A DNA stretch of 41,067 nt, taken from the NCBI RefSeq assembly GCF_001544355.1, contig NZ_BCQI01000026.1, forward strand, positions 1 through 41,067, read 5' to 3'. Each line of letters opens with the position of its first letter. The stretch's first letter is position 1. The translations under genes were made by a program, and so were the position numbers. The notes beneath the pieces were generated by a model. That model saw only the letters and a program-made list of their open reading frames with translations. It had not been told where the DNA came from and did no database searches. The DNA comes from Alicyclobacillus acidiphilus NBRC 100859 (GTDB lineage: Bacteria > Bacillota > Bacilli > Alicyclobacillales > Alicyclobacillaceae). Below, piece by piece: positions 688 to 21,781 of the stretch.

Positions 688-2136
688 GTGAGAATCGTCT
701 ACATCGACATCGACTCGCTGCGGCCTGATCACATGGGATGCTATGGATACACGCGGCAGACGACACCGAACATCGACGCGATCGCGGCGCAAGGGGTGCG
801 ATTCAACCGTGCCTATTGCGAGGCATCTCCCTGCGTTCCATCGAGAGCAAGCTTCATTTCCGGGAAATTTGCGATGAATCACGGCGCGCTGACGCACTTT
901 GGGCCGGGGGGCCAGTTTTATCACCCTGGCCAGGAACGGTGGAGCACGCGCTATCCTTTCTTCACGCGCTACCTTCGGCAAGCGGGCTACAAGACGGTCA
1001 CCATCTCCAGCTTCGGCGATCGACACCAGGCGTGGTGGTTCTTCGCAGGGTGGAACGAGATTCACTCGCACACGCTGAAATGCGGCAACGAAGATGCGAA
1101 TGAGGTGAATGAGCACGTCATTCCGTGGATCATGGAACATGGCGCGGAGGACAATTATCTGTTGCACGTTCAGTACTGGGATCCGCACGGCTTCTACACG
1201 GCGCCTGACGAATTCGCGGAGCGATTCGCGAACGAACCGGCCCCGGCGTTCCCAAGTGAAGAGGTTATCGCGGAACACCAGAAGATGTACCATCCGCGAT
1301 CGGCCCGCACGTTTCACTGGGCAATCACACCCAACATCCCGCGCAAGATGCCGCATTATATCCGCAACCGATCCGACTTCGAACAGCTGATCAACGGCTA
1401 CGACGCAGGCATCGCCTTCATGGATCTGCATGTTGGGCAGATTGTCGAAGCGTACCGGAAGCTGGGTATCGAAGACGAAATCTGCTTCATTATCAGCGCC
1501 GATCACGGCGAATCATTCGGCGAACAGGGCATTTACATGGAGCACGGGATGGCGACCGAATCGGTGCACCACATCCCACTGATTGTGCGAATCCCCGGCA
1601 TGGCTGGTGCGGGCGGCGAGATCGACCGCTTCGTGTACAACGTCGACGTGGTTGCGACCATCACGGAACTCGCCGGTCTTCCGATTCCAATCGGCTGGGA
1701 CGGACAGTCGCTGCTTCCGCTCCTTCAGAGCCAAGACGCAGCGTGGAGCCGCGATTATTTGATCCTGGAGCACGCTTTGTACGCCTGCCAGCGGGCTGTG
1801 CGGGACTCCAGATGGCATTACATTCGGACGTACGATCCCGGATTCTACGAGTTCGATCGCGTCGTCCTCTACGACATGGAGAGAGATCCGAACCAATTGG
1901 TCAACGTCGCCGAGAAGCACCCGGACGTGGTGGCTCTCATGGATCGCCGGATCGCCGATTGGGTACAGTCGAACCGCGATCGCCATGGAGAGATCATGGA
2001 CCCGATGGAGCAGGTGATTGCGACTGGGCCGTATCGTTACATCAGCCGCGAAGCGTGGATCCAGCGGCTGCGGGAGCTTGGCCTGTCGAGCGAAGCGGAC
2101 GCTTTGGCGGCGCGCGTGCACAGCGAGTACGAGTAA
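688..2136 (+). CDS. Cytoplasmic sulfatase, formylglycine (type I) family
   Basis: A 482-aa member of the alkaline-phosphatase/sulfatase superfamily that hydrolyses sulfate esters. The N-terminal YIDIDSLRPDH carries metal-binding aspartates. CVPSR at residues 49-53 is the sulfatase signature, whose Cys49 would be oxidised to formylglycine by a maturase not encoded here. SADHGESFG near residue 270 supplies the distal Asp-His metal ligands. There is no signal peptide or membrane segment, so it should act inside the cell on an imported sulfated sugar. The GTG start at 688 is chosen because GGAGGGG lies 7 bases upstream. It opens a run of sugar-catabolic genes. The exact substrate is unknown; a related phosphonate- or phosphate-ester hydrolase is less likely given the CxPSR motif. 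Confidence 0.85.
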   Translation: MRIVYIDIDSLRPDHMGCYGYTRQTTPNIDAIAAQGVRFNRAYCEASPCVPSRASFISGKFAMNHGALTHFGPGGQFYHPGQERWSTRYPFFTRYLRQAGYKTVTISSFGDRHQAWWFFAGWNEIHSHTLKCGNEDANEVNEHVIPWIMEHGAEDNYLLHVQYWDPHGFYTAPDEFAERFANEPAPAFPSEEVIAEHQKMYHPRSARTFHWAITPNIPRKMPHYIRNRSDFEQLINGYDAGIAFMDLHVGQIVEAYRKLGIEDEICFIISADHGESFGEQGIYMEHGMATESVHHIPLIVRIPGMAGAGGEIDRFVYNVDVVATITELAGLPIPIGWDGQSLLPLLQSQDAAWSRDYLILEHALYACQRAVRDSRWHYIRTYDPGFYEFDRVVLYDMERDPNQLVNVAEKHPDVVALMDRRIADWVQSNRDRHGEIMDPMEQVIATGPYRYISREAWIQRLRELGLSSEADALAARVHSEYE

Positions 2137-2163
2137 CGTCTGTCGGGAGTGGAGGCGACGATT

Positions 2164-3306
2164 GTGCGATGCATGGGATTGACCATCTATGAAACGGCTC
2201 TGCCGCTTCGCCAGCCATTTCAAATTTCGGGCGGCGTGGTGGCGAACCCGAGTCTCGGGGCGCCTCACATCTACGTTCGCATCGAGTCGGACGAGGGAGT
2301 CGTTGGATGGGGTGAAGCCAGGCCGAGCCACCGCTGGAGTTACGAGACTGCGGAATCCGTCTTCACGACCTTGCGGGATTATCTGGCACCCGTCATCGTG
2401 GGCGCCGAGATCGACGACGCCGAGCTTGTGCGCAAGTCGATGGAGCGTGTGATTGCCAAGGGGATCACGACGGGACAACCCATCGCGAAGGCGGCAGTCG
2501 ATACCGCCATTCACGACTTGCTGGCGCGCAGCGTCGGCCGCCCGATGTCGTTTCTGTGGGGGCGCAGGCCGCCGTCCAACATCTCGCTGTCGTATTTGAT
2601 CACGACCGAGGATCCGGCCGAATTGGAACGCAAGGTGGCGTCCGCAAGGGCGGAAGGCTTTCACGGTGTCGACGTCAAGCTGGGATTTGGTCTGTCGACC
2701 GATTTGGCGTTGATCGAAGCGCTCGAACCGCACGTGGCTGGACTGTTCGTCCGGGTCGACGCCAATCAGGGCTACAGCTTGTCGGAGGCGCGCACGATTG
2801 GGCGCAGATTGGCAAGACTTGGTGCGAACGTGTTTGAACAGCCTTTGCAGGCCGACGATTTGCACGGACATGCGCAATTGCGCCGGCTGGTGGATGTTCC
2901 CATCGCGCTCGACGAATCGATTTGGACAGCCGCCGGGGTTGCCGAGGCTTCGCGGCGCGAGGCGTGCGACGCGGTGGTCGTCAAGCTCACGAAAATGGGC
3001 GGACCTTCGGGCGCGAAACTGGCTGGCGACGTGGCTCGAGCCTGCGGGTTGGACGTGTTGGGCGGGGGCCTCACAGAGTCGACCATCGGCTTGGCCGCCA
3101 GCGCCATGGTGTTCGATGCCATTGGCATCCAAAGGCCGGTGGATTTGAATGGACCGTTTTTCCTCGCCGACGATCCTGTGACGCCCAAGGGGCGGATCGC
3201 CGATGGGGTGTACCATTTGCCAGCCGGGGAGGGACTTGGCTGCGTGATCGACGAGGAACGCATCGCGCCATGGACCCGACAGACCTACCGCCTGAGCGGA
3301 AATTGA
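2164..3306 (+). CDS. Enolase-superfamily enzyme (mandelate racemase/muconate lactonizing type)
   Basis: About 380 aa, with the capping domain followed by a (beta/alpha)7 barrel. Metal ligands are visible in order: RVDANQGYS (Asp), FEQPL (Glu) and IALDES (Asp). The barrel lysine of VVVKLTKMGG is present, with GGGLTEST near the C-terminus. Where the MLE subgroup usually has Lys-x-Lys, this protein reads Asp-Val-Lys, so one base is kept and the partner lysine is lost. The preferred start is GTG 2164, with GGAGG at 2151-2155 just upstream; GTG 2149 is possible but lacks that spacing. It lies 27 bases after the sulfatase. The reaction could be dehydration, epimerisation or cycloisomerisation of an acid sugar or related compound, and I cannot choose among them. 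Confidence 0.8.
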   Translation: MRCMGLTIYETALPLRQPFQISGGVVANPSLGAPHIYVRIESDEGVVGWGEARPSHRWSYETAESVFTTLRDYLAPVIVGAEIDDAELVRKSMERVIAKGITTGQPIAKAAVDTAIHDLLARSVGRPMSFLWGRRPPSNISLSYLITTEDPAELERKVASARAEGFHGVDVKLGFGLSTDLALIEALEPHVAGLFVRVDANQGYSLSEARTIGRRLARLGANVFEQPLQADDLHGHAQLRRLVDVPIALDESIWTAAGVAEASRREACDAVVVKLTKMGGPSGAKLAGDVARACGLDVLGGGLTESTIGLAASAMVFDAIGIQRPVDLNGPFFLADDPVTPKGRIADGVYHLPAGEGLGCVIDEERIAPWTRQTYRLSGN

Positions 3307-3335
3307 CAGACTGACCACAGATTGGGGGATATACG

Positions 3336-4355
3336 ATGCCGCGAAACAAAGTGAGATTTGGGATTGTCGGCTGTGGCGTGATCTCGCCGCTGCACGCGAA
3401 GGGGATTGCCGCCTGCTCGGACGCGGAACTGGTGGCCGTGGCGGATGTCGATCCGGAGCGCCGTCAGGCGTTCGCGGCGGAATACGGGGCCGCGCGCACG
3501 TTCGCGGATTACGAGGAGATGATGCGCGAGGCGGAGATCGACGCTGTCAGCATTTGCGTGCCGAGCGGGATGCACGCGGACGTCACGTTAGCCGCGGCAA
3601 AGTACGGTAAACACGTGTTGTGTGAAAAGCCGCTGGACATCAGGCCGGATCGGATGACGGAGATGATTTCGGCGTGCCGGGCGGCGGACGTGCGGCTCGG
3701 TGCGGTGTATCAGCGCCGCGTGTCTCCTGTCGCGATCGCGCTGAAACGTGCGCTGGAAGCTGGCGCGTTTGGCCGGCTGGTTCTGTGCGACGCGTATCTC
3801 AAGTACCACCGCAGCCAGGCCTACTACGACAGTGCTGGCTGGCGCGGCACGTGGGCCGTCGATGGCGGCGGCGCCTTGATGAACCAAGGCGTGCACGGCG
3901 TCGACATGGTGCAGTGGCTCGGCGACGGCATCCGCCGCGTGTTTGGACGGACCGCGGCCTTGGTACGCAACATCGAGGTGGAGGATACGGCGGTGGCCGT
4001 TGTCGAATATATGAACGGGGCGTTCGGCGTGATCGAGGGCGCCACCAGCGTCTACCCGGAACGGCCGAGCCACTTCGAAATCCATGGCGAACGCGGAACG
4101 GTTGTGTTCGACGACAACGGCGTGATCGAGTGGACGTTTGCGGATGATGCGGCACAGGGGCTGAAACCGGAAAGCGGCGCGGCAGCGGCGAACGGGCACC
4201 AGCTGTTTGTGGCGGACATGGTCGAGGCGATTCTGGACCACCGCGATCCGCTCGTCTCCGGCGAAGAGGCGCGTAAAGCGGTCGATATCATTCTCGCCAT
4301 TTATGAATCTCAACGCACCGGTCGCGAGATTGTGTTGGGCAGTGCGGGCGCTTGA
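3336..4355 (+). CDS. Gfo/Idh/MocA-family NAD(P)-dependent oxidoreductase (1)
   Basis: 339 aa, the usual family length. An N-terminal Rossmann fold begins FGIVGCGVISPLHAKG (GxGxxx dinucleotide loop). CEKPLDI provides the family EKP motif, and GGGALMNQGVHGVDMV carries the conserved histidine and aspartate of the substrate site. The family oxidises or reduces sugars, inositols and keto-sugars. ATG 3336 is preceded by a G-rich ribosome binding site. The gene overlaps the next oxidoreductase by four bases, which indicates translational coupling. Its substrate is presumably an intermediate of this locus. Confidence 0.88.
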   Translation: MPRNKVRFGIVGCGVISPLHAKGIAACSDAELVAVADVDPERRQAFAAEYGAARTFADYEEMMREAEIDAVSICVPSGMHADVTLAAAKYGKHVLCEKPLDIRPDRMTEMISACRAADVRLGAVYQRRVSPVAIALKRALEAGAFGRLVLCDAYLKYHRSQAYYDSAGWRGTWAVDGGGALMNQGVHGVDMVQWLGDGIRRVFGRTAALVRNIEVEDTAVAVVEYMNGAFGVIEGATSVYPERPSHFEIHGERGTVVFDDNGVIEWTFADDAAQGLKPESGAAAANGHQLFVADMVEAILDHRDPLVSGEEARKAVDIILAIYESQRTGREIVLGSAGA

Positions 4356-5299
4356 GGAAGATTGCCTTGTGCGGACTGGCGTTGAGCCATCCGTGGACGT
4401 TTGCCGATATCATGCTGGAAACCGCCGAAGTGGAATTGCACGTGTGGGATTCGTCGATCGATCGCGTCCGCGCCTTTGTCGACGGCCATCCCGGTGCAGT
4501 GGTGCACGAAGATTTCGACTCGCTGCTGCGGGTCCGACCCGATGGCGCGATGGTCTGCACGGAAAGCAGCCTTCATCACACCTACGCCATCGCGTGTCTG
4601 GAAGCGGCGGTGCCGACGTTTATCGATAAATGCATGGTCGTCAGTCGTTCCGCGCTCGCCGAGCTGGTCGATGCCGAGGAGCGGACGCGGACACCCGTCT
4701 TCAGTTCTTCGATCCTGCGCTACAGTCCGGATTTTGCGGCCCAGGCGAAGAGAACCCATGCGTTGCCCCGCCATGAACGGCTGTTGGCGCAGGCGACCGT
4801 CTACCACTCTATCGAGGGTTACCTGAAGCCTGGAAACGAGTGGCAGGACATTCCTGAGATAGGCGGTGGAACCCTGGTGAACATGGGGGTGCATGGGCTC
4901 GAACTGCTGTTGCTGAACGCAGGGCCGGGTGTCAAGCGCGTGTTTGCCGCTGCCGATCGCCGCTATTTCACCGCGTCCCAATCGGAAGACGTCGCCGTGA
5001 TTCAAGCGCAGTACGCCGACGGCATGATTGGAACCGTTCGGGTGGTTGGTTCGACCATCTTGCATGGCTATCAGATGGAGGTTGTTTCGCGGGCGGGCCT
5101 GGATTCTGTGTTTATACCAAACGACCAATCGAGAGATTTGCTGGAGCAGTATGGGTATCGGGGGTGTGTCCAGAATTTTCTAGGTATGGTCGAAGGTGCA
5201 TCGACATCCGCGTCGTTTGCGGACGCGGTCCACATTTGCAGCGTCCTGTTGGCGGCTCGAGACAGCGTCCGCACCGGATCGTGGGCCGAGGTTCCGTGA
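4352..5299 (+). CDS. Divergent Gfo/Idh/MocA-like oxidoreductase (2)
   Basis: 315 aa, starting at TTG 4352 inside the stop codon of the preceding gene. The fold-level pattern of the family is recognisable: a Rossmann-like N-terminus, then GGGTLVNMGVHGLELL. Key motifs have drifted. The N-terminus reads IALCGLALSHPWTF with no GxGxxG loop, the EKP motif is replaced by IDKCMVV, and the aspartate after the conserved histidine is Glu. It may bind the cofactor differently, act as a partner of the adjacent canonical enzyme, or have lost redox activity. No terminator with a U-run is visible before the promoter at 5352. Confidence 0.75.
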   Translation: MRKIALCGLALSHPWTFADIMLETAEVELHVWDSSIDRVRAFVDGHPGAVVHEDFDSLLRVRPDGAMVCTESSLHHTYAIACLEAAVPTFIDKCMVVSRSALAELVDAEERTRTPVFSSSILRYSPDFAAQAKRTHALPRHERLLAQATVYHSIEGYLKPGNEWQDIPEIGGGTLVNMGVHGLELLLLNAGPGVKRVFAAADRRYFTASQSEDVAVIQAQYADGMIGTVRVVGSTILHGYQMEVVSRAGLDSVFIPNDQSRDLLEQYGYRGCVQNFLGMVEGASTSASFADAVHICSVLLAARDSVRTGSWAEVP

Positions 5300-5351
5300 T
5301 TGGATCCGTTTTGTCGCGCGAGTCAGGCAAGTGAGACTCTTGCAAAAAGCG

Positions 5352-5380
5352 TTGACAAAAAATCTCCATATTGATAGCAT
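5352..5380 (+). promoter_or_regulatory. Sigma-A promoter of the ABC importer operon
   Basis: TTGACA at 5352-5357 and TAGCAT at 5375-5380 are separated by 17 bases. This is the best sigma-A match in region I. Transcription would start near 5387, leaving a leader of about 270 nt before the binding-protein gene. Confidence 0.75.
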
Positions 5381-5656: not shown

Positions 5657-7459
5657 ATGCGAAAGTACAAGGCGGTGCTGGCGACTGGTGTTACCGGAGT
5701 GCTCGCCCTTGCGGCCATTGGTTACGGTGTCGCGGGAAACACAGGCGCGAACACTGGGAGTACGTCGACTGGCGAAGCAAGTGTAAGCAGCAATAGTGGC
5801 AGCTTCTCGATGTTCTTCAACTTAGGTGACGGGCATGGGTTCGATCCCGACGCATCATCCTGGGAAGCCTATCTGGACGATGAGGGAATTTTCGAAGGGT
5901 TGGTCATCCCTGGCCCCAACGCGGCGACCAAGCCGATCCCAGGTATTGCTACGTCGTGGAGCGTCAGTAAGGATGGAAAAGTCTATACGTTCAACCTGCG
6001 TAAAAACGCGAAATTCTCGAATGGAGATCCGGTGACGGCGCAGGACTTCGTGTTCAGTATGCAGCGCGCGGTCAATCCGCAGACCTCCGTCGCGGATGGG
6101 CAAGGCCCGGTTACGGTCAACAACCTGCCTATCGTGAACGCTTCGAACATCATCAACGGCGTGAGTGGTTACAAACCGACAGACCTGGGTGTCAAGGCTG
6201 TCAACAACTACACCTTGCAGATTACGCTTTCTCGCAAAGATCCGACGTTCCTGAGAGATTTGACCTTGCCGACGTCGAGCTGGGTGGTTCCTTTGGATCC
6301 GAAGGTCGTCAACGCGATGAAGCCTTCCGACTGGTCCGATCCGACGAAAATCGTCTCTGACGGACCTTATGAATTGACGTCTTACAAACTCAAAACCTCG
6401 GCGACGTTGAAGCCGAATCCGCATTACTATGCGAAAACGACATTGAAGTCCATCACGGTCTATTACAACAGCACGGCTACCAATGATACGAGCCTCTCCT
6501 CGTTCAAGAGCGGACAAATGCAAGAAGTGCAGCTACAACCGCAGGATTTGGCCGCAGTCAAATCAGATCCTACGCTGAAGAAAGACCTGAAAATGTACCC
6601 GTCGTCGGCGCAGTACACATTCACCATTTTGCCGTCGAAGAACACCGCTTTGCAAAACCAAAAAGTCCGTGAAGCGTTTGCGCTTGCCATCAACCGCAAC
6701 GTCATTACGCAGTCTGTTTTGCAAGGTGCCGGAGCACCTGCCTACAACTACTATTTGCCAACATGGCTCAATCCGTGGGTAAGCAAATATGCGCAAGCGT
6801 ACAATCCGAAGAAGGCGCAGCAATTGTTGGCGCAAGCGGGTTATCCGGGCGGCAAGGGCTTCCCGACCGTGGATATCGTCGTTGGCAGCACGACGGATCC
6901 GGTAGCTGCCGCTGTCCAACAGATGTGGGAACAAACGCTCGGCGTCAAGGTCAACTTTGAGGGTCTTGAATGGGGCCAGTACGTCAACGCGTTGACGACG
7001 CAGCTCCCGGCAGATCAGGTCGGTTTTGCAAACGTCTCGACGAACGCGATATACGCCAATCTCCAACTTCCGCAGTCGCTTTTGAGCTGGATCTTCCCAA
7101 GCGGCATCAACCTCGTGAATGGTTACCTGTCGCCGTCGAATTTCCAAGCGTGGTCGACAATCAACAATAACTCCAATTTGTCCGCTGCTCAGAAGAAGGC
7201 CGAAGAGTTCGTGATTTACCAGAAGGGTCTGCCGAACAGCGTCTTGAGCAACCTGAAACTGGGTATCCAAGCATTTGCGACGAACAATCAAGCCAAGATG
7301 GAACAGTACTATGGGCAACAGATTCAAAACGCGTTCTTCATCAGCATCTACACCCCGATTGTGCCGGAATTGTTGAGCCCGCAGGTCAAGGGCTATCAAC
7401 CGGACCAGTTGCTCTTGATTGCCCCGCCTTACTGGCTGAACAACATCACCGTGAGCTGA
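5657..7459 (+). CDS. Extracellular solute-binding protein, family 5 (OppA/DppA type), without lipobox
   Basis: 600 aa. It captures an oligosaccharide or peptide outside the membrane and delivers it to the permeases encoded just downstream. An N-terminal export signal (basic MRKYK, hydrophobic core to about residue 28) is followed by a Ser/Thr/Gly linker. The mature part shows family-5 patterns such as the IATSWSVSKDGKVYTFNLR region and FSNGDPVTAQDFVFSMQRA. There is no cysteine in the whole protein, so it cannot be lipid-anchored like typical Gram-positive binding proteins; it is presumably cleaved by signal peptidase I or kept as an uncleaved N-terminal anchor. ATG 5657 follows AGGGGGT. Family-5 proteins bind oligosaccharides as well as peptides, and the neighbours favour a sugar ligand. 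Confidence 0.88.
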   Translation: MRKYKAVLATGVTGVLALAAIGYGVAGNTGANTGSTSTGEASVSSNSGSFSMFFNLGDGHGFDPDASSWEAYLDDEGIFEGLVIPGPNAATKPIPGIATSWSVSKDGKVYTFNLRKNAKFSNGDPVTAQDFVFSMQRAVNPQTSVADGQGPVTVNNLPIVNASNIINGVSGYKPTDLGVKAVNNYTLQITLSRKDPTFLRDLTLPTSSWVVPLDPKVVNAMKPSDWSDPTKIVSDGPYELTSYKLKTSATLKPNPHYYAKTTLKSITVYYNSTATNDTSLSSFKSGQMQEVQLQPQDLAAVKSDPTLKKDLKMYPSSAQYTFTILPSKNTALQNQKVREAFALAINRNVITQSVLQGAGAPAYNYYLPTWLNPWVSKYAQAYNPKKAQQLLAQAGYPGGKGFPTVDIVVGSTTDPVAAAVQQMWEQTLGVKVNFEGLEWGQYVNALTTQLPADQVGFANVSTNAIYANLQLPQSLLSWIFPSGINLVNGYLSPSNFQAWSTINNNSNLSAAQKKAEEFVIYQKGLPNSVLSNLKLGIQAFATNNQAKMEQYYGQQIQNAFFISIYTPIVPELLSPQVKGYQPDQLLLIAPPYWLNNITVS

Positions 7460-7534: not shown

Positions 7535-8509
7535 TTGCTGTTATACGTCCTACGCCGGATTGGCTACATGATTATCGCGTTGGTTGCTGTCAGTTTTGTA
7601 ACCTTTCTGTTGATGCGGGCCGCGCCGGGCAGCTTCCTGGAAATGGGCAGCGGCGGGGTCGTCGGCGTCGATCTCGGTCTCGGCAGCGTCGGCGTCCACG
7701 ATCCTCAGGCGGTTCAGGAATTTATCCATGTCTTTCATCTGGACAAACCGTGGTACGAGCAGTATTGGGGTTACCTCTGGGGCTTCTTCACCCTGCATAT
7801 GGGCACGTCGTTCGAATACCCGGCCACACCGACATTGCAACTGATTGGCCAGACCTTTCCGCTGACCATCATGATTGCCATTCTAGCCATCGCCTTAGCC
7901 GTGGTTCTATCTATCATTCTTGGCACGTTGGCCGCGCTCAGGGCGAATTCCTGGGCGGATCGAGGGACCGTGTTGGTCGCGTCGCTGGCAGCGTCCATTC
8001 CGCACTACGTCGTCGCGGTCTTTCTGATGCTGATCTTCGGCGTCTGGTTTCATCTTTTGCCGGTCGTGGGCCAAGCTGGCCCGAAGTATTTCATTCTTCC
8101 CGTCGTCGCCATGGCTTTGCCGATGTGCGGCTCGATGTCGCGCTACATGCGCAACAGCCTTGTCGAGACGATGAATTCGGAGTACATGGTCACGGTGTAC
8201 GCGAAAGGCGGCGGACTGCGGGCCGCGTTGTTCGGTCACGGGATGCGCAACTCCCTGTTGCCGTTCATTACCGTCGTTGGACCTCAACTTGCGTCCTTGA
8301 TGATGGGCACTGTCTATATCGAGCAGATGTTTGGCATTCTCGGACTCGGAAAAGTGTTTACCAGTGCGTCGTCGACGCGCGATTACCCTTTGATTATGGA
8401 TTCCACGATGATCTACGCGGTGTTGATTATGGTCATGAACTCATTGGTGGATATTTGTTACGGCGCTCTTGATCCGAGGATTCGCAAAGCGCAGGCAAAA
8501 GGCAGGTGA
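7535..8509 (+). CDS. ABC transporter permease, DppB/OppB type
   Basis: 324 aa with about six membrane segments, beginning LLYVLRRIGYMIIALVAVSF. This is the classic start of DppB/OppB proteins. The cytoplasmic EAA-like loop that contacts the ATPase is visible around YMVTVYAKGGGLRAALFGH. TTG 7535 is chosen because AGGGGGTGA lies just upstream. It forms half of the membrane channel with the next gene, which it overlaps by four bases. Confidence 0.9.
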   Translation: MLLYVLRRIGYMIIALVAVSFVTFLLMRAAPGSFLEMGSGGVVGVDLGLGSVGVHDPQAVQEFIHVFHLDKPWYEQYWGYLWGFFTLHMGTSFEYPATPTLQLIGQTFPLTIMIAILAIALAVVLSIILGTLAALRANSWADRGTVLVASLAASIPHYVVAVFLMLIFGVWFHLLPVVGQAGPKYFILPVVAMALPMCGSMSRYMRNSLVETMNSEYMVTVYAKGGGLRAALFGHGMRNSLLPFITVVGPQLASLMMGTVYIEQMFGILGLGKVFTSASSTRDYPLIMDSTMIYAVLIMVMNSLVDICYGALDPRIRKAQAKGR

Positions 8510-9414: not shown

Positions 9415-9438
9415 ATGTCTCGCGATGGGGGAAGAACA

Positions 9439-11411: not shown

Positions 11412-11462
11412 TGACAATTGCCCTTGGGCCATGTCCGAGTGGGCGTAGGGGAGGGACGTCAA

Positions 11463-14284: not shown

Positions 14285-15166
14285 GTGAGCGTGAAACGAG
14301 ATATGGAGAAGGTTGTGCAGGCCGGGGCCAATTCCATCGCAATGATTCACAGCATTTTGCCATCCTTGTCAAACGCGGAACAAAAGGTGGCTCAGGCGGT
14401 TCTGGATAATCCAAGCAACACGGTGTACTCTTCGGTCACCGATCTCGCTGAAACCGCTGAAGTCGGCGAGACGACGGTCATTCGATTCTGTCGAAAGCTT
14501 GGGTATCGCGGATTTCAAGAATTTAAACTTGCCGTCGCTCAGGATCTCGTCAGTCCGAGTCAACAGGTGTATGGAAAAATCGAAGAAGACGATCCGATTG
14601 ACGTCATCTGCAAAAAGATGACCGCGTTCAGCACGCAGGCGGTCGAGGACACACTGAGTCTACTCCAAGAATCGCAGCTTCAGAAAGCGACTGACGCGTT
14701 GATTGCAGCAAGGCGTCAATTCTTTTTTGGCGTGGGATCGTCCGGCATCACCGCTCAAGACGCGCAGTATCATTTCATGCGACTGGGTTTTGACGCCCAC
14801 GCCGCGTCGGACGCGCACATCATCGCCATGAATTGCTCGATGATGACACCGGCGGATGTCGTTCTGGGCATTTCGACTTCGGGCAGCACGAAGGACTTGG
14901 TCGACGCGATGAAGCTGGCGAAAGAGAACGGGGCTTATGTGATTTGTTTGACCAGCCATGCGAGATCGCCCATCACGTCGTACGCTGACGCCGTCTTGAT
15001 TGCGGCCTCGAAGGAAACGCCCCTCCAAGGGGGGGCATTTGCGTCAAAGCTCGCACAGATTCACGTGCTGGACATTCTGTCTACCATCGTGTCGCTCAAA
15101 CAGCGAGCGTCGACGTTTGAAGCGTTGAGCAAAAGCGCAAAGTCTGTCGTGGACAAGATGTACTGA
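14285..15166 (+). CDS. RpiR/MurR-family transcriptional regulator
   Basis: 293 aa. The N-terminal RpiR helix-turn-helix contains SDLAETAEVGETTVIRFCRK. The C-terminal SIS (sugar isomerase) domain begins around FFFGVGSSGITAQDAQYHF and would bind a phosphosugar effector. RpiR proteins commonly control N-acetylmuramate, N-acetylmannosamine or sialate genes, which fits NanE and the ROK kinase downstream. GTG 14285 follows AAAGGGG. Candidate operators are the ATATTCC-type motifs at 534-543 and 16072-16081. It is the last gene of its operon and converges with the phosphoesterase gene. Confidence 0.88.
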   Translation: MSVKRDMEKVVQAGANSIAMIHSILPSLSNAEQKVAQAVLDNPSNTVYSSVTDLAETAEVGETTVIRFCRKLGYRGFQEFKLAVAQDLVSPSQQVYGKIEEDDPIDVICKKMTAFSTQAVEDTLSLLQESQLQKATDALIAARRQFFFGVGSSGITAQDAQYHFMRLGFDAHAASDAHIIAMNCSMMTPADVVLGISTSGSTKDLVDAMKLAKENGAYVICLTSHARSPITSYADAVLIAASKETPLQGGAFASKLAQIHVLDILSTIVSLKQRASTFEALSKSAKSVVDKMY

Positions 15167-15174: not shown

Positions 15175-15993
15175 TCAGCCTTTGTCGCTTGTCGTCACTG
15201 TTTCGTTTGCGACGGGCACGGTGAAGCGGTAGTCGTTGTCCAGCCAGCGCAGCGACTTGTGATCGCGAATGCGAAACGTCGTCGTCGATTCGGTCAACTC
15301 GACGAAGCGGCTTTGCGGGTGGGCGTTCAGCGTGCATCCTCCGCCTACGTAATAAACGCCGTCGCGGCATAGAAATTGCGCCGGCTGGTCCATCCGTTGA
15401 TGCGTGTGGCCGCTGATGACGAACGTGTTGGGGCGATGGGCGAGGATGGCCTGGAGCTCTTCGCTCTGGAAGCACGTCATCTCGGAATTGGCGACGGTGC
15501 CGTTGACAGGCTGATGGAGAAAGACGAGAAGTCTCCCGCGCCACTGGCTTACGGTGGATTCGAACCAACGCAACTGGGCAGGTGACAGCCATGCAGCGTC
15601 GTGCCAATCGGGGTGATAACCTTCTGGAGAGAGAAGCACGAGCCGCACGTCGCCGAAATCCAGAGATTTGTAGATGGCGTCCTGTCCCGTGTACGACAGA
15701 AAGCGCTGCTGCGCCATCGACCATGAATACATTTCGTCTTCGTAGTAGCCATAGTATTCGTGGTTGCCCATTGTGAAGAGGATCGGCGCATCGAGGTAGT
15801 GGCGCACCGCGCGCATCGCCAACTCATAGTCTCGGACCTTGCCGTTCGTAAGGTCGCCGTTCATCACCACGAGGTCCGGGTTTTGTTCGGCGATGTCGTG
15901 CAAAGCGTGGTAGAGACCAGGCACGGAGTCGACTGGTTCAAGCGTGTCGGCCCAGGCCATGAAGTGCAAATCGGAAGTCACAGCAATATTCAT
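15175..15993 (-). CDS. Calcineurin-like metallophosphoesterase
   Basis: 272 aa with all five metallophosphoesterase motifs: SDLHF, MNGDLT, MGNHEYYG, FLHQPV and ISGHTHQ. It binds two metal ions and hydrolyses a phosphomonoester or phosphodiester. There is no signal peptide, so it is cytoplasmic. AAGGAGG lies upstream of the ATG at 15993. It is transcribed divergently from nanE across a short shared promoter region and ends 8 bases from the end of the RpiR gene. Its placement suggests it handles a phosphorylated intermediate of this locus, but the substrate is not visible from sequence. Confidence 0.85.
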   Translation of the reverse strand: MNIAVTSDLHFMAWADTLEPVDSVPGLYHALHDIAEQNPDLVVMNGDLTNGKVRDYELAMRAVRHYLDAPILFTMGNHEYYGYYEDEMYSWSMAQQRFLSYTGQDAIYKSLDFGDVRLVLLSPEGYHPDWHDAAWLSPAQLRWFESTVSQWRGRLLVFLHQPVNGTVANSEMTCFQSEELQAILAHRPNTFVISGHTHQRMDQPAQFLCRDGVYYVGGGCTLNAHPQSRFVELTESTTTFRIRDHKSLRWLDNDYRFTVPVANETVTTSDKG

Positions 15994-16151: not shown

Positions 16152-16871
16152 ATGAAGTTGGAAACGTTAATTAATCAAATTCGCGGCGGCTTAATCGTCT
16201 CGTGCCAAGCGCTCGACGACGAACCGTTGCACGGCGCGAACGTCATGCCTCGCATGGCTGTTGCGGCTGCCGAAGGTGGCGCTGTCGGAATTCGGGCCAA
16301 CGGTGCGAACGATATTCGCGAGATTAAGAAGGAAGTCAATCTCCCGGTCGTCGGTATCGTGAAGCGAACGTACGAAGGCAGTCCCATCTACATCACGCCG
16401 ACCATGCGTGAAGTGGAGGAAGTCGCCTTGGCCGGGGCGGAAGTCGTGTCGTTGGACGCGACGTTTCGACCGCGTCCCAATGGGATTGAACTTTCCGATC
16501 TCCTTGAACAGATTCACCGCACATTTCCTGAGCTTCTCGTCATGGCGGATATCTCGACGCTCGAAGAAGGGATCGGCGCCGCCGATTTGGGTTTCGATCT
16601 CGTCGCCTCCACGATGTCGGGCTACACGCCCTACACCGAGCACGACCCGAATCCAAATTTCGACCTCATTGAGCAGCTCGTTCAAAGTGTCGATATCCCA
16701 GTGATTGCCGAAGGACATATCCGAACGCCCGAAGACGCGGCGCGCTGCATCGAACTTGGATGCACCAGCGTGGTCGTGGGTTCGGCCATCACCAGACCGC
16801 AGGAAATTACGAAACATTTTGTCGAACGGCTGAAGATGGTTCGACCAACCGCAAAACCGTCGGCTCGATGA
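16152..16871 (+). CDS. nanE: N-acetylmannosamine-6-phosphate 2-epimerase
   Basis: 239 aa matching the NanE family along its length: GGLIVSCQALDDEPLHG at the N-terminus, GAVGIRANGANDIREIK, PVVGIVKRTY, VVSLDATFRPRP and the phosphate-binding end (PVIAEGHIRTPEDA, VVVGSAITRP). It is a cytoplasmic TIM barrel that converts ManNAc-6-phosphate to GlcNAc-6-phosphate. The neighbouring ROK kinase would supply the phosphorylated substrate. No sialate lyase (NanA) is in the window, so the ManNAc need not come from sialic acid. ATG 16152 follows a GGTGATGG segment. Confidence 0.92.
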   Translation: MKLETLINQIRGGLIVSCQALDDEPLHGANVMPRMAVAAAEGGAVGIRANGANDIREIKKEVNLPVVGIVKRTYEGSPIYITPTMREVEEVALAGAEVVSLDATFRPRPNGIELSDLLEQIHRTFPELLVMADISTLEEGIGAADLGFDLVASTMSGYTPYTEHDPNPNFDLIEQLVQSVDIPVIAEGHIRTPEDAARCIELGCTSVVVGSAITRPQEITKHFVERLKMVRPTAKPSAR

Positions 16872-16895
16872 GACCGACGAAGGTGAGTGGAACTT

Positions 16896-17846
16896 GTGCG
16901 CTGCAGCATTGGCATTGACGTAGGCGGAACGAAAACCCTCGGGGCCGTCGTGTGCGAAGATGGGCGAATCATCCATCAAGTAAGGTGTGCGACTCCAGCG
17001 AGTGATCGCGATGGAGTCGTTCAGACCGTTGTCGAACTGGCGGCAACACTCGCCGCGTACGCGGCTTCGGAGTCGCACGAAGTGGTTGGCGTCGGTGTCG
17101 GGACCGCCGGTCAGGTGAACTTCGAAGCGGGTACGGTCGTCTCCGGGACGCCCAACATCCGCGACTGGATGAATGTGGATTTGCGATCCGCCCTTGAGCC
17201 GATTGGATTCCCGGTCTGGGTGGACAACGACGTGAACGTCCACCTGCTCGCGGAGACGCGGTTTGGCGTCGCTGCAGGCCGCCAGCATGTCCTGATGTTG
17301 GCCCTTGGCACCGGAGTCGGCGGGGCGGCATGGGAAGACGGCCGGCTGGTGCGGGGCGATTGGGGAGCGGCGTGCGAGTTCGGCCACGTTTGTGTGGATT
17401 ATCGCGGGCCTGACTGCAATTGCGGCAGTCGCGGCTGCCTTGAGCTTTACGCGTCTGGCACAGGTATCGCGCGGATGATGCGGGAACGTCTTGCGCAGAC
17501 AGGTGGATCGACTCCATCGCCGACACTCGACGCTCGGGCTGTATTGCAACAGGCGCAAGCTGGCGATCCTGTCGCCGCCGCCGTGGTCCACGACATGCTG
17601 GACGCCCTGTCGATGGCGTGCGTCAGCCTGATCCACGCGTTCAATCCGCAGATGATTGTGCTTGGAGGCGGCGTGATGGAGAGTGGCGAGTGGTTGCTCA
17701 CGGGTGTGCGGGAGCGCGTCAAAACGCTCGGCATGTCCTCCCTTGTGCGGCCCGTCGCCATCGCGGCCGCGCAATTTGGCGCTGAAGCAGGCGTCGTTGG
17801 CGCGGCCCTGCAATCGTTTCTATATGAACAGACTCTTGAGGAGTGA
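16896..17846 (+). CDS. ROK-family sugar kinase, possible N-acetylmannosamine kinase
   Basis: About 316 aa. IGIDVGGTKTLGAVV is the phosphate loop, and ACEFGHVCVDYRGPDC followed by NCGSRGCLE is the ROK zinc site (one His and Cys-x-Cys-x(4)-Cys). The family phosphorylates glucose, GlcNAc or ManNAc. Directly following nanE, ManNAc kinase is the most economical assignment, but GlcNAc or glucose kinase is not excluded. GTG 16896 is preferred to GTG 16887 because AAGGTGAG ends at 16887, leaving an 8-base spacer. Confidence 0.82.
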   Translation: MRCSIGIDVGGTKTLGAVVCEDGRIIHQVRCATPASDRDGVVQTVVELAATLAAYAASESHEVVGVGVGTAGQVNFEAGTVVSGTPNIRDWMNVDLRSALEPIGFPVWVDNDVNVHLLAETRFGVAAGRQHVLMLALGTGVGGAAWEDGRLVRGDWGAACEFGHVCVDYRGPDCNCGSRGCLELYASGTGIARMMRERLAQTGGSTPSPTLDARAVLQQAQAGDPVAAAVVHDMLDALSMACVSLIHAFNPQMIVLGGGVMESGEWLLTGVRERVKTLGMSSLVRPVAIAAAQFGAEAGVVGAALQSFLYEQTLEE

Positions 17847-17851
17847 TGAAG

Positions 17852-18916
17852 ATGCCCATACGTGTAGGCGTGATTGGTGTTGGATCCATTGCTGAGATTG
17901 CCCACCTTCCGAACTACCGCAAGAATGACCAGGTGGTTCTTGCCGCGGTCGCGGATTTCAACGAGCAGCGCGCTCAATCGGTGGCCAACAAGTTCGGCGT
18001 TGCGGCGGCGTATACCGACGTTGAACAAATGCTTGCGAACGAAAACATCGACGCGGTCAGTATCTGTACCCCGAATACCAGCCACGTTCCGTTGGCGCTG
18101 ACCGCGATTCGGCATGGTGTCGACGTCTTGTTGGAAAAGCCCTTATCGACGGATTACAGCGAGGCCAAGGCACTCGTCGCGGAAGCGGAGAAGGCAAACC
18201 GCATTTGCATGATTGGTATGCCGCACCGGTTCCGCAACCAGGCGCGGGCTTTGAAGCATTTGGTCGATGCGGGAGAGCTCGGCGACATCTATTACGTCAA
18301 GGCGAAAATTCTCCGCAGGCGCGGAACGCCGACGGGGTGGTTCACGGATCGTTCGAAGTCAGGCGGCGGATCGTTGATGGACATCGGCGTTCACGCGCTC
18401 GATCTCGCCTGGTGGATCACAGGCATGCAAAAGCCCGCCAAGATCTCTGGCCAGTTGGTCCAGGGGATTGGCAAGTACAATACGCTCATGACCGGGCGTT
18501 GGAAGTCGGCCGATGCCGCAAACCAGGACAACTCCGTGTTCGACGTGGAGGACTTCTCGACCGCGTACATTCGCTTTGAGAATGGCATGGTCCTCAGCCT
18601 GGAAGTGAGCTGGGCCTTGAACGGTCCGCAGGACGATGCCGTCAAAGTGGACGCGTATGGGACAAAAGGCGGAATTTCGCTGGAACCGCTTTGCTACTAC
18701 GGCGAACACAATCAAGTGTTTGGCGAGGCAAAACTCGATGTGGTTTCCAACGATTTTTATGAAGAGGAGATCAACCATTTCGTCGATTGCGTCGTTCGCC
18801 GCAGCACGCCGTTGATTCCGCCGTCGCAAGGGGCGGCAGTGGTGCAGATGCTCAGCGGTATTCGTCAATCGTCCGAATTGCGCAGAGAAGTGGATGTCGA
18901 AGAAATCGAAGTATGA
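17852..18916 (+). CDS. Gfo/Idh/MocA-family oxidoreductase (3)
   Basis: 354 aa. The dinucleotide loop is VGVIGVGSIAEIAHLP, the EKP motif is LLEKPLST, and the substrate-site segment is GGGSLMDIGVHALDLAWW. ATG 17852 has GAGGAG at an 8-base distance; the in-frame GTG 17843 and ATG 17846 are too close to it. It overlaps no gene but starts 5 bases after the ROK stop. It is followed immediately by a TIM-barrel isomerase, the usual Gfo/Idh plus AP-endonuclease-2 pairing of keto-sugar pathways. Confidence 0.88.
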   Translation: MPIRVGVIGVGSIAEIAHLPNYRKNDQVVLAAVADFNEQRAQSVANKFGVAAAYTDVEQMLANENIDAVSICTPNTSHVPLALTAIRHGVDVLLEKPLSTDYSEAKALVAEAEKANRICMIGMPHRFRNQARALKHLVDAGELGDIYYVKAKILRRRGTPTGWFTDRSKSGGGSLMDIGVHALDLAWWITGMQKPAKISGQLVQGIGKYNTLMTGRWKSADAANQDNSVFDVEDFSTAYIRFENGMVLSLEVSWALNGPQDDAVKVDAYGTKGGISLEPLCYYGEHNQVFGEAKLDVVSNDFYEEEINHFVDCVVRRSTPLIPPSQGAAVVQMLSGIRQSSELRREVDVEEIEV

Positions 18917-18951
18917 TGACCGGTGAGCCGAGGATAGAGGAGGACATGGCG

Positions 18952-19788
18952 ATGGATTTGTGTGTGAGCATGTGGAGCGTCCACAGAAAGTTTTACAACG
19001 ACGGTTGGAGCGTGATCGACTTTCTTCAGTTTTGCCATGAAGCGGGCGTTCAACATGTGGAATTGCTGGATTTGTTCTGGCGCGACGCCGATACCGAGGT
19101 CCCGGCGGTTCTCGAATATCTCCGCAGCCACGACATGAAGGTTGCGGCGTACGCCGTGACAAACGACTTTGTCCACACCGACGTCGCGAACCGGGAATCG
19201 GCTTTGCAGGCTGTACAAAACGGCATCTCGTTCGCCAAAAAACTAGGAAGCCCGGTTGTCCGCGTATTCTCTGGCGATTTAAAAGAAGGTTACGACTTTG
19301 AATCTGCCTTCGGTTATATCGTGGAAGGGCTGAAGGCCGCCGCTGCCGAAGCGGGGGACGACGTCATTCTTGCGTTGGAGAATCACGGAAAACTGGCTGG
19401 ACGCGGCGATCAGGTCAAACGCGTGATTCTGGAAGTTGGTTCAAACGCGCTGAAATCGACATTCGACGTCGGCAATTTCTACCTGGTTGGCCAGCAGCCG
19501 ATGGAGGCGTTGGCTCAACTGTCCGGCTATCTCGGTCACGTTCACGTGAAAGACTTTGTGCCGAGTGACAAGGGCCTGCTTGCGACGACGGGTGAATATT
19601 TCGCTGGCGCGGCATGCGGCCAAGGGATTGTGCCGTTCAAGGACATCTTTTCGATGCTCGACACGATCGGCTATACAGGGGCCCTGTCGGTGGAGTACGA
19701 AGGCGAAGGAGACGAGCTCGAGGGCGTTCACGCCAGCCTGTCATTTTTGCGGAGCCTGAGGAGTACGTCCGCCCAAGGCGTCAATTGA
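18952..19788 (+). CDS. TIM-barrel sugar phosphate isomerase/epimerase (AP endonuclease 2 superfamily) (2)
   Basis: 278 aa. Metal ligands appear as LENHG (Glu), TFDVGNF (Asp), HVHVKDF (His) and VEYEGEG (Glu). ATG 18952 is preferred over ATG 18946 because AGAGGAGGA at 18936-18944 leaves a 7-base spacer only for the later codon. It sits between two Gfo/Idh genes. The three together could oxidise a sugar at C3, act on the keto-sugar, and reduce the product, as in levoglucosan and C-glycoside catabolism. That is inference from family and order. Confidence 0.83.
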   Translation: MDLCVSMWSVHRKFYNDGWSVIDFLQFCHEAGVQHVELLDLFWRDADTEVPAVLEYLRSHDMKVAAYAVTNDFVHTDVANRESALQAVQNGISFAKKLGSPVVRVFSGDLKEGYDFESAFGYIVEGLKAAAAEAGDDVILALENHGKLAGRGDQVKRVILEVGSNALKSTFDVGNFYLVGQQPMEALAQLSGYLGHVHVKDFVPSDKGLLATTGEYFAGAACGQGIVPFKDIFSMLDTIGYTGALSVEYEGEGDELEGVHASLSFLRSLRSTSAQGVN

Positions 19789-19802
19789 GAGGTGTATGAG
19801 CT

Positions 19803-20801
19803 ATGTTCCGAGTAGGACTTGTCGGCTGCGGCACGATTGGCAGTGTTCACGCCCAAGGGTACACCCGTATGGAGGATGTCGAACTTGCGGGCATCGTTGA
19901 GGTTCGCGAGGATCACGGCCGTGCGATGGCGCAGTTGTTTCACACGACGTGGTACCCGACCATCGAGGCGCTGTTCGAGGAGGCAGAGGTCGACGTGATC
20001 GACATCTGCGTTCCGACGTACCTCCATCGCGGCTACGTGGAGACAGCGGCCCGAGCGGGCAAACACGTCATTTGCGAGAAGCCGATGGCGCGGACTTTGG
20101 CTGACGCGCAGGCGATGATCGACGTCTGCGAGGAAAACGGCGTGCGATTGTTCATCGCGCAAGTGTTGCGCTTCTTTCCGCAATATCGGAAGGCGTACGA
20201 GTTGTTGCAGGCTGGCGCGGTTGGCCAGGTAGGCACGGTGCGGACAACCCGCGGCGGCGTCTTTCCGACATCGTGGAACGACTGGTATGCGAGCGCGGAG
20301 AACAGCGGCACGTTGATTGTCGACATGATCATCCACGACTTTGACTTCTTGCGGTGGTGTTTTGGCGACGTCCGGCGGGTTTATGCGAAGAGTCTGCGCG
20401 GGCGCGATTTGAATCGGCTCGATCACGCCTTCGTCAGCCTTCGCTTCGAAAACGGCGTGATCGCCCACGTCGAAGGCACTTGGGCCTATCCGTCCGGTTT
20501 CCAGACCCGGCTTGAGATTGCGGGGACGGGCGGCGTGTTGGAACACGTCGGCGATGAGGAAATGCCGATTCACCTCTCGCTGCGCGAACGGATCGGCCGA
20601 TCCGAAGGGGTCGCCGTACCTGAAAGTCCGCTGGCGAAAGATCCGTATCAGTTGGAGCTGGAACACTTTTTGGCGTGCATCCAGTCTGGAGCAGAGCCGA
20701 TTGTCACCGCAAGGGACGCTTACGAGGCCTTGCGGATCAGTCTCGCGGCCCTGGAATCGGCTGCGACCGGCCGTCCAATCGAGCTGGAGGTGAGATCATG
20801 A
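19803..20801 (+). CDS. Gfo/Idh/MocA-family oxidoreductase (4)
   Basis: 332 aa. FRVGLVGCGTIGSVHAQGY is the Rossmann loop and CEKPMAR the EKP motif. The segment SGTLIVDMIIHDFDFLRW holds the conserved histidine and aspartate. Its MIIHDFD form resembles the inositol-dehydrogenase-like branch more than the GVHxxD form of the other paralogues, so its substrate probably differs. AGAGGTG precedes ATG 19803. Its stop overlaps the start of the next Gfo/Idh gene. Confidence 0.88.
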   Translation: MFRVGLVGCGTIGSVHAQGYTRMEDVELAGIVEVREDHGRAMAQLFHTTWYPTIEALFEEAEVDVIDICVPTYLHRGYVETAARAGKHVICEKPMARTLADAQAMIDVCEENGVRLFIAQVLRFFPQYRKAYELLQAGAVGQVGTVRTTRGGVFPTSWNDWYASAENSGTLIVDMIIHDFDFLRWCFGDVRRVYAKSLRGRDLNRLDHAFVSLRFENGVIAHVEGTWAYPSGFQTRLEIAGTGGVLEHVGDEEMPIHLSLRERIGRSEGVAVPESPLAKDPYQLELEHFLACIQSGAEPIVTARDAYEALRISLAALESAATGRPIELEVRS

Positions 20802-21781
20802 AAGTCGGAATCGTCAGCTTCGCGCACATGCATGCCCATTCGTACGCAAACGCCCTGCAATCCATCAAAGGTGTCGAGTTCGCGGCCATTGCGGATGATC
20901 TTCCAGAGCGGGGACAGGCTGCCGCAGATCAATACGGCGTTCGGTACGTCGGCGACTATCCGGCGTTGCTGGCTGAGGACATCGATGCACTGATTGTCTG
21001 CACGGAGAACGCAAGGCATGCCGAAGTCGTGATCGCCGCAGCCAAGGCGAACAAGCACATCCTGTGCGAGAAACCGATCGCGACCACGCTGGCTGACGCG
21101 CAAGCGATGATCGTCGCCTGTCGGGAATCCGGCGTGCTGTTGCAAACCGCTTTCCCGGTGCGCTTCCATCCTGCGGTTCAGCGGGTCAAGCGGCTCTTGG
21201 AGCAAGGGCGCGTCGGACGGATTTTGGCGATGCGGGGCACCAACCGCGGGCAGAACCCGGGGGGATGGTTCGTCGATCCGGCTCTGTCCGGCGGCGGCGC
21301 AGTCCTGGATCACACCGTCCACGTCGTCGATCTGATGCGCTGGTTCACCGGCAGTGAGGTCCGCGAAGTGTACGCCGAGATCGACACACGCTTTCACGAC
21401 TCGCTCGCGGTGGACGATTGCGGGCTGCTGACGCTGGAATTCGCAAACGGCGTGATCGCGTCGCACGATCCGAGTTGGTCGCGATGCGCCTCCTATCCGA
21501 CGTGGGGCGACGTGACGGTGGAAATCATCGGCACGGAAGGAACGCTCTCGCTGGATGTCTTTCGTCAACATATGCTGCTCCACAGCGATCTCAGCGGACA
21601 CACCACACACGAAAATTGGGGAGACGACATGGACTCGTTGCTCGTCGCGGACTTTATCCGAAGCGTAGCTGAACGAAAGGCTTCGCCGTCCGTAACGGGC
21701 GAGGACGGTCTGCGCGCGCTCGAAGTGGCCCTCGCGGCCTATGAGTCAGCGACATCGGGTCAACCAGTGCGGATTGGATAA
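20798..21781 (+). CDS. Gfo/Idh/MocA-family oxidoreductase (5)
   Basis: 327 aa from ATG 20798, which overlaps the preceding stop (ATGA) and has GGAGGTGAG at ideal distance. The N-terminus reads KVGIVSFAHMHAHSYA, a variant of the Rossmann loop without GxGxxG. CEKPIAT and GGGAVLDHTVHVVDLMRW are canonical. This is the last gene of region I. A 9-bp inverted repeat (21781-21789 with 21811-21819) follows the stop. Confidence 0.86.
   Translation: MKVGIVSFAHMHAHSYANALQSIKGVEFAAIADDLPERGQAAADQYGVRYVGDYPALLAEDIDALIVCTENARHAEVVIAAAKANKHILCEKPIATTLADAQAMIVACRESGVLLQTAFPVRFHPAVQRVKRLLEQGRVGRILAMRGTNRGQNPGGWFVDPALSGGGAVLDHTVHVVDLMRWFTGSEVREVYAEIDTRFHDSLAVDDCGLLTLEFANGVIASHDPSWSRCASYPTWGDVTVEIIGTEGTLSLDVFRQHMLLHSDLSGHTTHENWGDDMDSLLVADFIRSVAERKASPSVTGEDGLRALEVALAAYESATSGQPVRIG

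Follow-up and report, generated by a model that had tools for sequence, protein, structure and literature searches.

A locus of 19 genes at positions 688–21781 of a 41,067-nucleotide stretch of DNA from Alicyclobacillus acidiphilus NBRC 100859 (contig NZ_BCQI01000026.1) joins five Gfo/Idh oxidoreductases (Gfo1–Gfo5) and two TIM-barrel proteins (TIM1 and TIM2) to amino-sugar genes and an Opp-type importer. The whole stretch, here called the window, is one complete contig (G000:C26 in our numbering) of a genome of 3.86 Mb in 165 contigs. Judging from the sequences, we lean towards the view that the locus serves the uptake and intracellular breakdown of a glycan containing N-acetylmannosamine (ManNAc), with C3-oxidation chemistry working beside hydrolases. 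Comparison with related loci delimits a conserved core of predicted function, consisting of an RpiR-family regulator, a metallophosphoesterase (MPP), NanE, an ROK-family kinase, the DgpA-like Gfo3, one or both metal-site TIM barrels, Gfo4, Gfo5 and the Opp-type importer, often accompanied by a secreted-looking DUF4855 protein.

The comparison was centered on NanE, the ManNAc-6-phosphate 2-epimerase (16152..16871, plus strand). NanE is found above the Pfam cut-off in 132 of 398 genomes of the class, ten of them in the same family as A. acidiphilus, although the sampling of the family is possibly incomplete. For each of these ten genomes (A. acidiphilus included, at 100% to itself), the top-ranking NanE locus was scored by tblastn in a single run over stretches of 20–40 kb, some of which were ended by contig edges. 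RpiR and MPP each lie near NanE in nine of the ten loci, and ROK, TIM2 and the Opp binding protein each in eight. Gfo3 is likewise present in eight at identities of at least 54%, a ninth match of 37% in genome G018 being left uncounted, as are Gfo4 (39% in G040) and Gfo5, for which a ninth match of 38% in G032 was left uncounted. A DUF4855 protein is found in seven loci and TIM1 in six, the corresponding place in G017 lying outside the stretch read. The remaining genes behave as add-ons: Gfo1 is present in three loci, Gfo2 in two, and the enolase-superfamily, GH20-like and sulfatase genes in three, two and one, respectively. The initial annotation of this DNA had proposed a search for conserved synteny of the sulfatase, enolase, Gfo/Idh and Opp genes; the Gfo/Idh and Opp genes are indeed kept around NanE, whereas the sulfatase and the enolase are not, and the enolase and the GH20-like enzyme turn out to be optional.

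In the sister genome G001 the gene order from enolase to Gfo5 is kept at 51–80% identity, without the sulfatase and GH20-like genes and with a DUF4855 protein upstream of the enolase. Three NanE loci from beyond the family, though within its taxonomic order, retain parts of the arrangement (Opp, ROK, Gfo4, Gfo5 and RpiR in G023; RpiR, ROK and DUF4855 in G024; ROK and DUF4855 in G027), and a locus from another family (G135) has RpiR, ROK and DUF4855 together with Gfo3-, TIM2-, Gfo4- and Gfo5-like genes. A second NanE copy in G052 has NagA and NagB matches and none of the redox genes.

From left to right, the window carries genes for the sulfatase, enolase, Gfo1, Gfo2, a binding protein of SBP family 5, OppB, OppC, OppD, OppF, the GH20-like enzyme, TIM1, RpiR, MPP (on the minus strand), NanE, ROK, Gfo3, TIM2, Gfo4 and Gfo5. 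Pfam matches confirm, at or near their given positions, the five Gfo/Idh proteins, two TIM barrels, sulfatase, enolase, GH20-like enzyme, NanE and Opp importer named in the initial annotation; RpiR, MPP and ROK were not named there, yet belong to the core. Because MPP (15175..15993) sits on the opposite strand and divides the plus-strand genes into 688–15166 and 16152–21781, we infer that the locus is not one operon and has at least two plus-strand transcription units. The genome holds 23 Gfo/Idh matches, five of them inside the 41-kb window where an even spread predicts about 0.24, a density to be read with the caveat that clustering of genes from one pathway is common. Three listed gene starts are probably too early: those of TIM2 (18787) and OppF (10290), since matches to their homologues start only at residues 52 and 44, and that of Gfo5 (20675), since the homologous open reading frames (ORFs) measure 328 and 327 amino acids.

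The amino-sugar assignment begins with NanE, which is well above the curated cut-off (NCBIfam NF002231, 311 bits versus 189). The adjacent ROK sugar kinase (16887..17846, plus strand; Pfam) is a proposed ManNAc/GlcNAc kinase (GlcNAc, N-acetylglucosamine), with PDB matches to glucokinase (2e-47) and human ManNAc kinase (8e-46). NagA is encoded on another contig of the same genome (345.8 bits, over the cut-off). NagB-like and NagA genes stand ahead of the core in G040 (NagA at 317.6 bits, cut-off 225.65), and G052 has NagB (290.5 bits, cut-off 236.9) placed between NanE and ROK. Amino-sugar catabolism, as the initial annotation had it, is thus supported by NanE and ROK in the window and by the NagA and NagB genes that adjoin this core in related genomes.

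The regulator (14285..15166, plus strand; Pfam) resembles NanR. Its best PDB match is Vibrio vulnificus NanR (4ivn, 9e-39), followed by RccR (8ju9, 3e-36) and by MurR (2e-20), whose entries are single-domain. His163 and Lys240 of NanR, which we take to be ligand-binding, are both conserved in the window protein, and a GGAFASK segment that includes the Lys is identical in the two. RccR has the same His, but Arg at the Lys240 position. According to the part of a preprint consulted (PMC12713135), 4IVN is NanR complexed with ManNAc-6-phosphate. A search of 17 intergenic stretches for a shared RpiR operator found a palindrome-like site in four, the window's included, and no 10-mer common to more than three, the sharing being chiefly among three congeners. 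Taken as a whole, the amino-sugar genes would indicate ManNAc rather than the glycosaminoglycan or mucin sugar that had been suggested earlier.

NanE, NanK and an RpiR-type NanR are also the usual genes of nan operons, and the resemblance extends to the NagA/NagB lower pathway. The locus might accordingly be read as one for catabolism of sialic acid or 2,7-anhydro-sialic acid, with a Gfo/Idh enzyme opening the anhydro form; in the portion of the literature consulted, the Gfo/Idh enzymes RgNanOx and YjhC are linked to sialic acid clusters with nanE and nanK (PMC7535918). We consider this highly unlikely. The best NanA match in the genome reaches 138.7 bits against a cut-off of 382, no DHDPS-family protein is found among the window proteins scanned, and RgNanOx, as described in the same partial source, has His at the position of the triad Asp, where Gfo3, Gfo4 and Gfo5 have Asp and Gfo1 and Gfo2 have Asn in our alignment.

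The redox part of the proposed ManNAc-glycan system centers on Gfo3 (17843..18916, plus strand), a putative glycoside C3 oxidoreductase. Its best solved relatives are DgpA proteins, best aligned over residues 6–351 of 357 (PDB 9m3d, 2e-53; 7xr9, 8e-50), and its residues K99, D180 and H184 are invariant in eight loci from seven genomes (L033 and L106 come from one genome), invariance here and below being counted where at least 80% of the rows are aligned. TIM1 (13424..14266, plus strand; Pfam AP_endonuc_2, 3e-43) has E153, D183, H208 and E251 invariant in seven homologues. TIM2 (18949..19788, plus strand, in an ORF that opens at 18787; also an AP_endonuc_2 barrel by Pfam) has E198, D227, H253 and E303, numbered from the ORF start at 18787, invariant in 14 loci. 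From what is known of the AP_endonuc_2 fold, we take both sets to be metal sites. TIM2 matches PDB entries 8z1i (4e-19) and 4ovx (2e-13); a search of open-licence PMC papers for Art22, the name of the best match, gave only unrelated papers. With a DgpA relative and two barrels that keep the E/D/H/E set, the pairing of Gfo/Idh enzymes with AP-endonuclease-2-type barrels proposed in the initial annotation stands. DgpA-type enzymes carry out C3 oxidation of C- and O-glycosides, according to the part of the source consulted (PMC11239390). Redox cleavage of a linkage by the Gfo/TIM enzymes is plausible on these resemblances.

The other Gfo/Idh genes on the plus strand are Gfo1 (3336..4355; Pfam), in which the alignment has K-N-H replacing K-D-H, Gfo2 (4352..5299; Pfam, 8e-8), which is present in G001 too, Gfo4 (19803..20801; Pfam and 11 homologues) and Gfo5 (20798..21781, in an ORF that opens at 20675; Pfam). 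Inspection of the alignment by eye finds an ordinary dinucleotide loop in Gfo1, Gfo3 and Gfo4 and not in Gfo2, where it is degenerate, or Gfo5; five Gfo genes may therefore not equal five dehydrogenases.

The same Gfo and TIM enzymes could instead epimerise a rare sugar. In that case C3 oxidation, TIM-barrel epimerisation of the 3-keto sugar and reduction would invert a stereocenter and thereby supply ROK and NanE with ManNAc or GlcNAc made from a rare amino sugar, while the linkages were left to hydrolases. Among curated models, all of them below cut-off, TIM1 fits ketose-phosphate 3-epimerases best, and Gfo4 and Gfo5 hit those for inositol dehydrogenase and UDP-GlcNAc 3-dehydrogenase; moreover, G052 encodes dedicated enzymes for hydrolysis (GH20-like and GH38) within or next to the cluster. 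Against this, Gfo3 is closest to DgpA, a glycoside enzyme, and the comparable barrels in the published systems, as far as those accounts were seen, are lyases or hydratases. Stereocenter inversion is possible on this evidence, and we rate it as rather unlikely.

Several described systems share parts of the chemistry expected of a ManNAc-glycan pathway. For levoglucosan use by Bacillus smithii (LgdA, LgdB1, LgdB2 and LgdC), the portion of the report consulted (PMC7676230) describes a C3 dehydrogenase, then two "sugar phosphate isomerase" proteins for the elimination and hydration steps, and lastly a Gfo/Idh reductase, so that C3 oxidation, paired barrel proteins and a final reduction are common to both. 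That portion mentions no amino-sugar genes, importer or RpiR, and Gfo1, Gfo3, Gfo4 and Gfo5 of the window score only 115, 109, 90 and 121 bits against the model for levoglucosan dehydrogenase, whose cut-off is 650. In the puerarin system (DgpA and DgpB–DgpC), besides the kinship of DgpA to Gfo3, the partial account names 4OVX, which also matches TIM2, as a fold neighbor of the sugar-isomerase-like subunit. The context there is flavonoids rather than amino sugars, and no DgpB-like gene was noted in the window, where no search was aimed at one. The 3-keto-disaccharide routes with DUF1080 hydrolases (Caulobacter lactose, BT2157) likewise cleave a disaccharide after C3 oxidation and have sugar epimerases and a reductase nearby, as far as the source was seen (PMC9007349). 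No DUF1080 occurs among the window proteins scanned, however, and the window Gfo proteins remain far below the cut-offs of the BT_2158 and BT_2159 models (56 of 750 and 53 of 650 bits at best). The chemistry thus has precedents; none of the open-licence PMC literature searched was found to describe it together with a ManNAc pathway, MPP, Opp and DUF4855.

The importer is encoded on the plus strand by Pfam-assigned genes for the family 5 binding protein (5657..7459; PF00496, 5e-74), which has a hydrophobic N-terminal segment, OppB-type (7535..8509) and OppC-type (8506..9414) permeases, and OppD-type (9415..10413) and OppF-type (10290..11411, true start probably about 10416) ATPases. That it imports carbohydrate, as proposed earlier, agrees with the locus of A. 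pomorum, genome G032 of the same family, which carries a CUT1-type sugar ATP-binding cassette (ABC) importer and no Opp in the stretch read. Next to the importer lies the GH20-like hexosaminidase gene (11418..13442, plus strand). As in GH20 beta-N-acetylhexosaminidases, its product has domain 2 (Pfam, 9e-18) and the catalytic Asp-Glu pair (D488-E489 in a HIGHDE motif, kept in G052). It differs from them in matching the catalytic domain weakly, though over the cut-off (PF00728, 2e-7), and by eye it has no recognizable signal peptide. Its closest homologue, in G052 (37–39%), is its sole relative in the 398 class genomes at E ≤ 1e-25.

MPP is assigned by Pfam, and its metal-site residues are invariant in eight loci from seven genomes. 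In G035 a glycerophosphodiester phosphodiesterase gene (L118:17334-18170) follows the core cluster, and ORFs of 278 and 284 amino acids, similar by their N-termini, occupy the same place in G036 and G017. Together with the conserved MPP, this hints at a phosphodiester in the substrate. Proteins of the ADP-ribosylglycohydrolase family are also encoded in or beside the core in G052 (L107:7870-8922) and G018 (L116:11283-12593).

DUF4855 is likely to be the enzyme that acts outside the cell because it occurs near NanE in seven of the ten family loci, compared with about 1.7% expected per locus from an even spread of its 66 matches in 41 genomes (a rough figure, the mean genome size being estimated). 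By eye, DUF4855 proteins have hydrophobic N-termini. A. acidiphilus has two DUF4855 genes, on contigs C84 and C23; only 687 bp of the window contig precede the sulfatase, and linkage of either gene to the locus is therefore not readable in this genome. Fold matches of a DUF4855 model to CBM32-like modules and several TIM-barrel hydrolases suggest a carbohydrate enzyme, and no more specific assignment. In the open-licence PMC literature a single paper naming DUF4855 was found, and its title does not point to glycans.

The enolase-superfamily gene (2149..3306, plus strand; MR_MLE, Pfam 4e-41) belongs to the muconate-lactonizing/racemase subgroup and is an optional module, which Gfo1 accompanies in all three family loci that have it. 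A scan of named genomes with a three-member alignment gave 62 enolase loci, mostly from Bacilli by title, which include near-identical strains that are not independent events and many short contigs. Within about 10 kb of the enolase, NanE is found in 18 of these loci, ROK in 19, RpiR in 16, Gfo1 and Gfo3-like genes in 12 each, TIM2-like genes in six and MPP in one; the window-type Opp binding protein, Gfo2, Gfo4, Gfo5, GH20-like enzyme and sulfatase are found in none at the thresholds applied. By chance, NanE would lie near the enolase in about 0.24% of loci (a rough even-spread estimate with rounded copy number and genome size). When two further loci (L016 and L019) are added and neighbor clusters are named, each from the Pfam match of one member, the 64 loci contain a sugar ABC permease in 29, a zinc alcohol dehydrogenase in 19, an M55 D-aminopeptidase and a GH20C hexosaminidase in 10 each, DUF4855 in nine (plus L033 in a separate cluster), a DegT aminotransferase in nine with a similar second cluster in eight, and a MurQ-like SIS protein in five. 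A protein with no Pfam match, regulator-like by eye, occurs in 18. A plasmid search with the enolase yielded 1177 records, every one below 60% identity.

Enolase-superfamily enzymes abstract a proton adjacent to a carboxylate. K177 is present in 65 of 65 sequences, K279 in 64, R58 in 60 and R62 in 61. The first Lys of the K-x-K motif on strand 2 is Asp in 50 sequences, Lys in nine and Asn in six, the window protein having D-x-K. All NCBIfam models score it below cut-off. The enolase, Gfo1 and Gfo2 are probably an add-on trio for a carboxylated sugar. Two further observations were made in the enolase loci. Several Thermoactinomycete- and Fictibacillus-type loci (L032:11133-21080 and similar) join the enolase to a weak Gfo-like gene, the DegT aminotransferase and its second relative, a GH20C hexosaminidase and what looks by eye like a sugar-binding lipoprotein, and have the look of catabolic loci with sugar aminotransferases. 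In 11 loci (L031:6201-7298 and 10 others) a conserved protein without a Pfam match (c13) has a predicted alpha/alpha barrel (predicted local distance difference test, pLDDT, 86) that matches first cellobiose 2-epimerases and then unsaturated glucuronyl hydrolases, folds from which no substrate can be read; a relative of it adjoins the GH20-like gene in G052.

The subgroup of the enolase also brings to mind recycling of cell-wall peptides, in which Opp would import muropeptides, the enolase would be a dipeptide epimerase and the regulator would be MurR-like. The M55 and MurQ-like neighbors just mentioned fit such a role, and M55 occurs near NanE in G023. The window enolase, however, has D-x-K instead of the K-x-K that is the hallmark of dipeptide epimerases and N-acylamino acid racemases, many enolase loci carry CUT1-type sugar importers, Pfam finds no peptidase among the cluster proteins, and the regulator scores higher with NanR than with MurR, though the MurR entries are single domains. 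Muropeptide recycling is, in our judgement, very improbable.

The sulfatase (688..2136, plus strand; S1-type, PF00884, 9e-39, matched from residue 3) has the Cys-type motif CVPSR and, by eye, no space for a signal peptide. It ends 12 bp before the enolase gene, so that the two are likely co-transcribed here. The genome encodes a formylglycine-generating enzyme maturase at C13:62330, beside another sulfatase at C13:64035, and with its Cys-type motif the window sulfatase can, by this reasoning, be active; a match to a radical-SAM sulfatase maturase, at 20.8 bits, is below cut-off. These features, and the GH20-like enzyme within the cluster, favor the substrate named in the initial annotation, a sulfated amino-sugar oligosaccharide of glycosaminoglycan, mucin or algal origin. 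The gene does not travel with the cluster, however: in addition to its single occurrence among the family loci, it is absent at 200 bits or more from all 62 enolase loci (many of them short), and its two closest orthologues lie elsewhere, one of 78% in G001 at 1.4 Mb from the cluster and one of 68% in G023 on another contig. A sulfated substrate was therefore rejected as a core trait; as the overall explanation of the locus we hold it to be improbable, and the sulfatase looks like a local add-on.

If the locus does serve a ManNAc-containing glycan, the pathway might run as follows. In relatives, the DUF4855 protein would cut the polymer outside the cell, and Opp would import the oligosaccharides. 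Inside, hydrolases such as the GH20-like enzyme would trim ordinary N-acetylhexosamine residues, while Gfo3 would oxidise C3 of a glycoside, a TIM barrel would eliminate or rehydrate across C1–C2, or epimerise, and Gfo4 or Gfo5 would reduce the product. ROK would convert ManNAc to ManNAc-6-phosphate and NanE the latter to GlcNAc-6-phosphate, leaving NagA and NagB to complete the route, with RpiR sensing ManNAc-6-phosphate. The add-ons would handle extra decorations, a sulfate ester in the case of the sulfatase and probably a carboxylated sugar in that of enolase, Gfo1 and Gfo2. The help that a 2-acetamido group gives to hydrolysis in GH20 enzymes is unavailable in the manno configuration, a limitation that would account for a redox bypass.

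A number of observations weigh against this interpretation. Gfo3 reaches the cut-off of none of the NCBIfam models that it hits, ROK is equally close to glucokinases, NanE and ROK are no proof that ManNAc enters as such, and the regulator matches NanR only slightly better than RccR, a protein that responds to a different sugar phosphate. The structural model of DUF4855 is of low quality (mean pLDDT 65), and the folds it matches give an ambiguous picture. Among the family loci, the stretch in G032 is without ROK, RpiR and TIM2 and that in G018 without ROK and TIM2. NanE is out of reach in 44 of the 62 enolase loci, many of them on short contigs. In the class, the enolase occurs at E ≤ 1e-70 in 15 genomes and has NanE within 20 kb in three (G000, G001 and G032), all of the same family; in G388 the nearest NanE is about 28 kb away. 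Gfo5 occurs at E ≤ 1e-60 in 30 of 319 class genomes (A. acidiphilus included), eight of which (G000, G017, G018, G035, G036, G040, G052 and G135) have NanE no more than 20 kb away on the Gfo5 contig. Linkage to NanE is thus not a class-wide rule for the enolase or for Gfo5, and since both often occur without NanE nearby, both serve other substrates too. Our assessment of the ManNAc interpretation is founded on the core seen in the family and is left unaltered by these numbers.

The observations can be joined in a bolder proposal, which we offer tentatively and regard as doubtful. The locus would be a complete undescribed system for ManNAc polymers, for example secondary cell wall polymers or a poly-ManNAc exopolysaccharide, in which DUF4855 would be a new family of secreted depolymerising glycosidases, Gfo3 and the TIM barrels would break beta-ManNAc linkages by C3 oxidation and elimination, and the D-x-K enolase would catalyze a new reaction of a sugar acid, carboxylated or N-acylated, that derives from the same glycan. 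In the parts of the sources consulted, ManNAc is found in Gram-positive cell-wall polymers, namely the secondary cell wall polymers of Paenibacillus (PMC6030368), and putatively in an Escherichia coli exopolysaccharide (PMC8669469). The term N-acetylmannosaminidase was not found in the open-licence PMC literature searched.

Elsewhere in the window, positions 24148–37470 hold a separate cluster that looks like one for xyloglucan oligosaccharide use. Bordered by AraC and LacI regulators, it comprises an alpha-xylosidase of GH31 (1277 bits, NF007940), GH42, GH95, a TIM barrel, an MFS transporter and an FGGY kinase. The open frame at 1–558, whose translation is a low-complexity GGS/RRVAAGCGGL repeat, is probably no gene.

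If the ManNAc-glycan interpretation is true, the locus would represent a route by which bacteria digest ManNAc-containing cell-wall polymers. It would give DUF4855 a likely role, extend 3-keto-glycoside chemistry to amino sugars, and provide a defined context for a conserved enolase subfamily.

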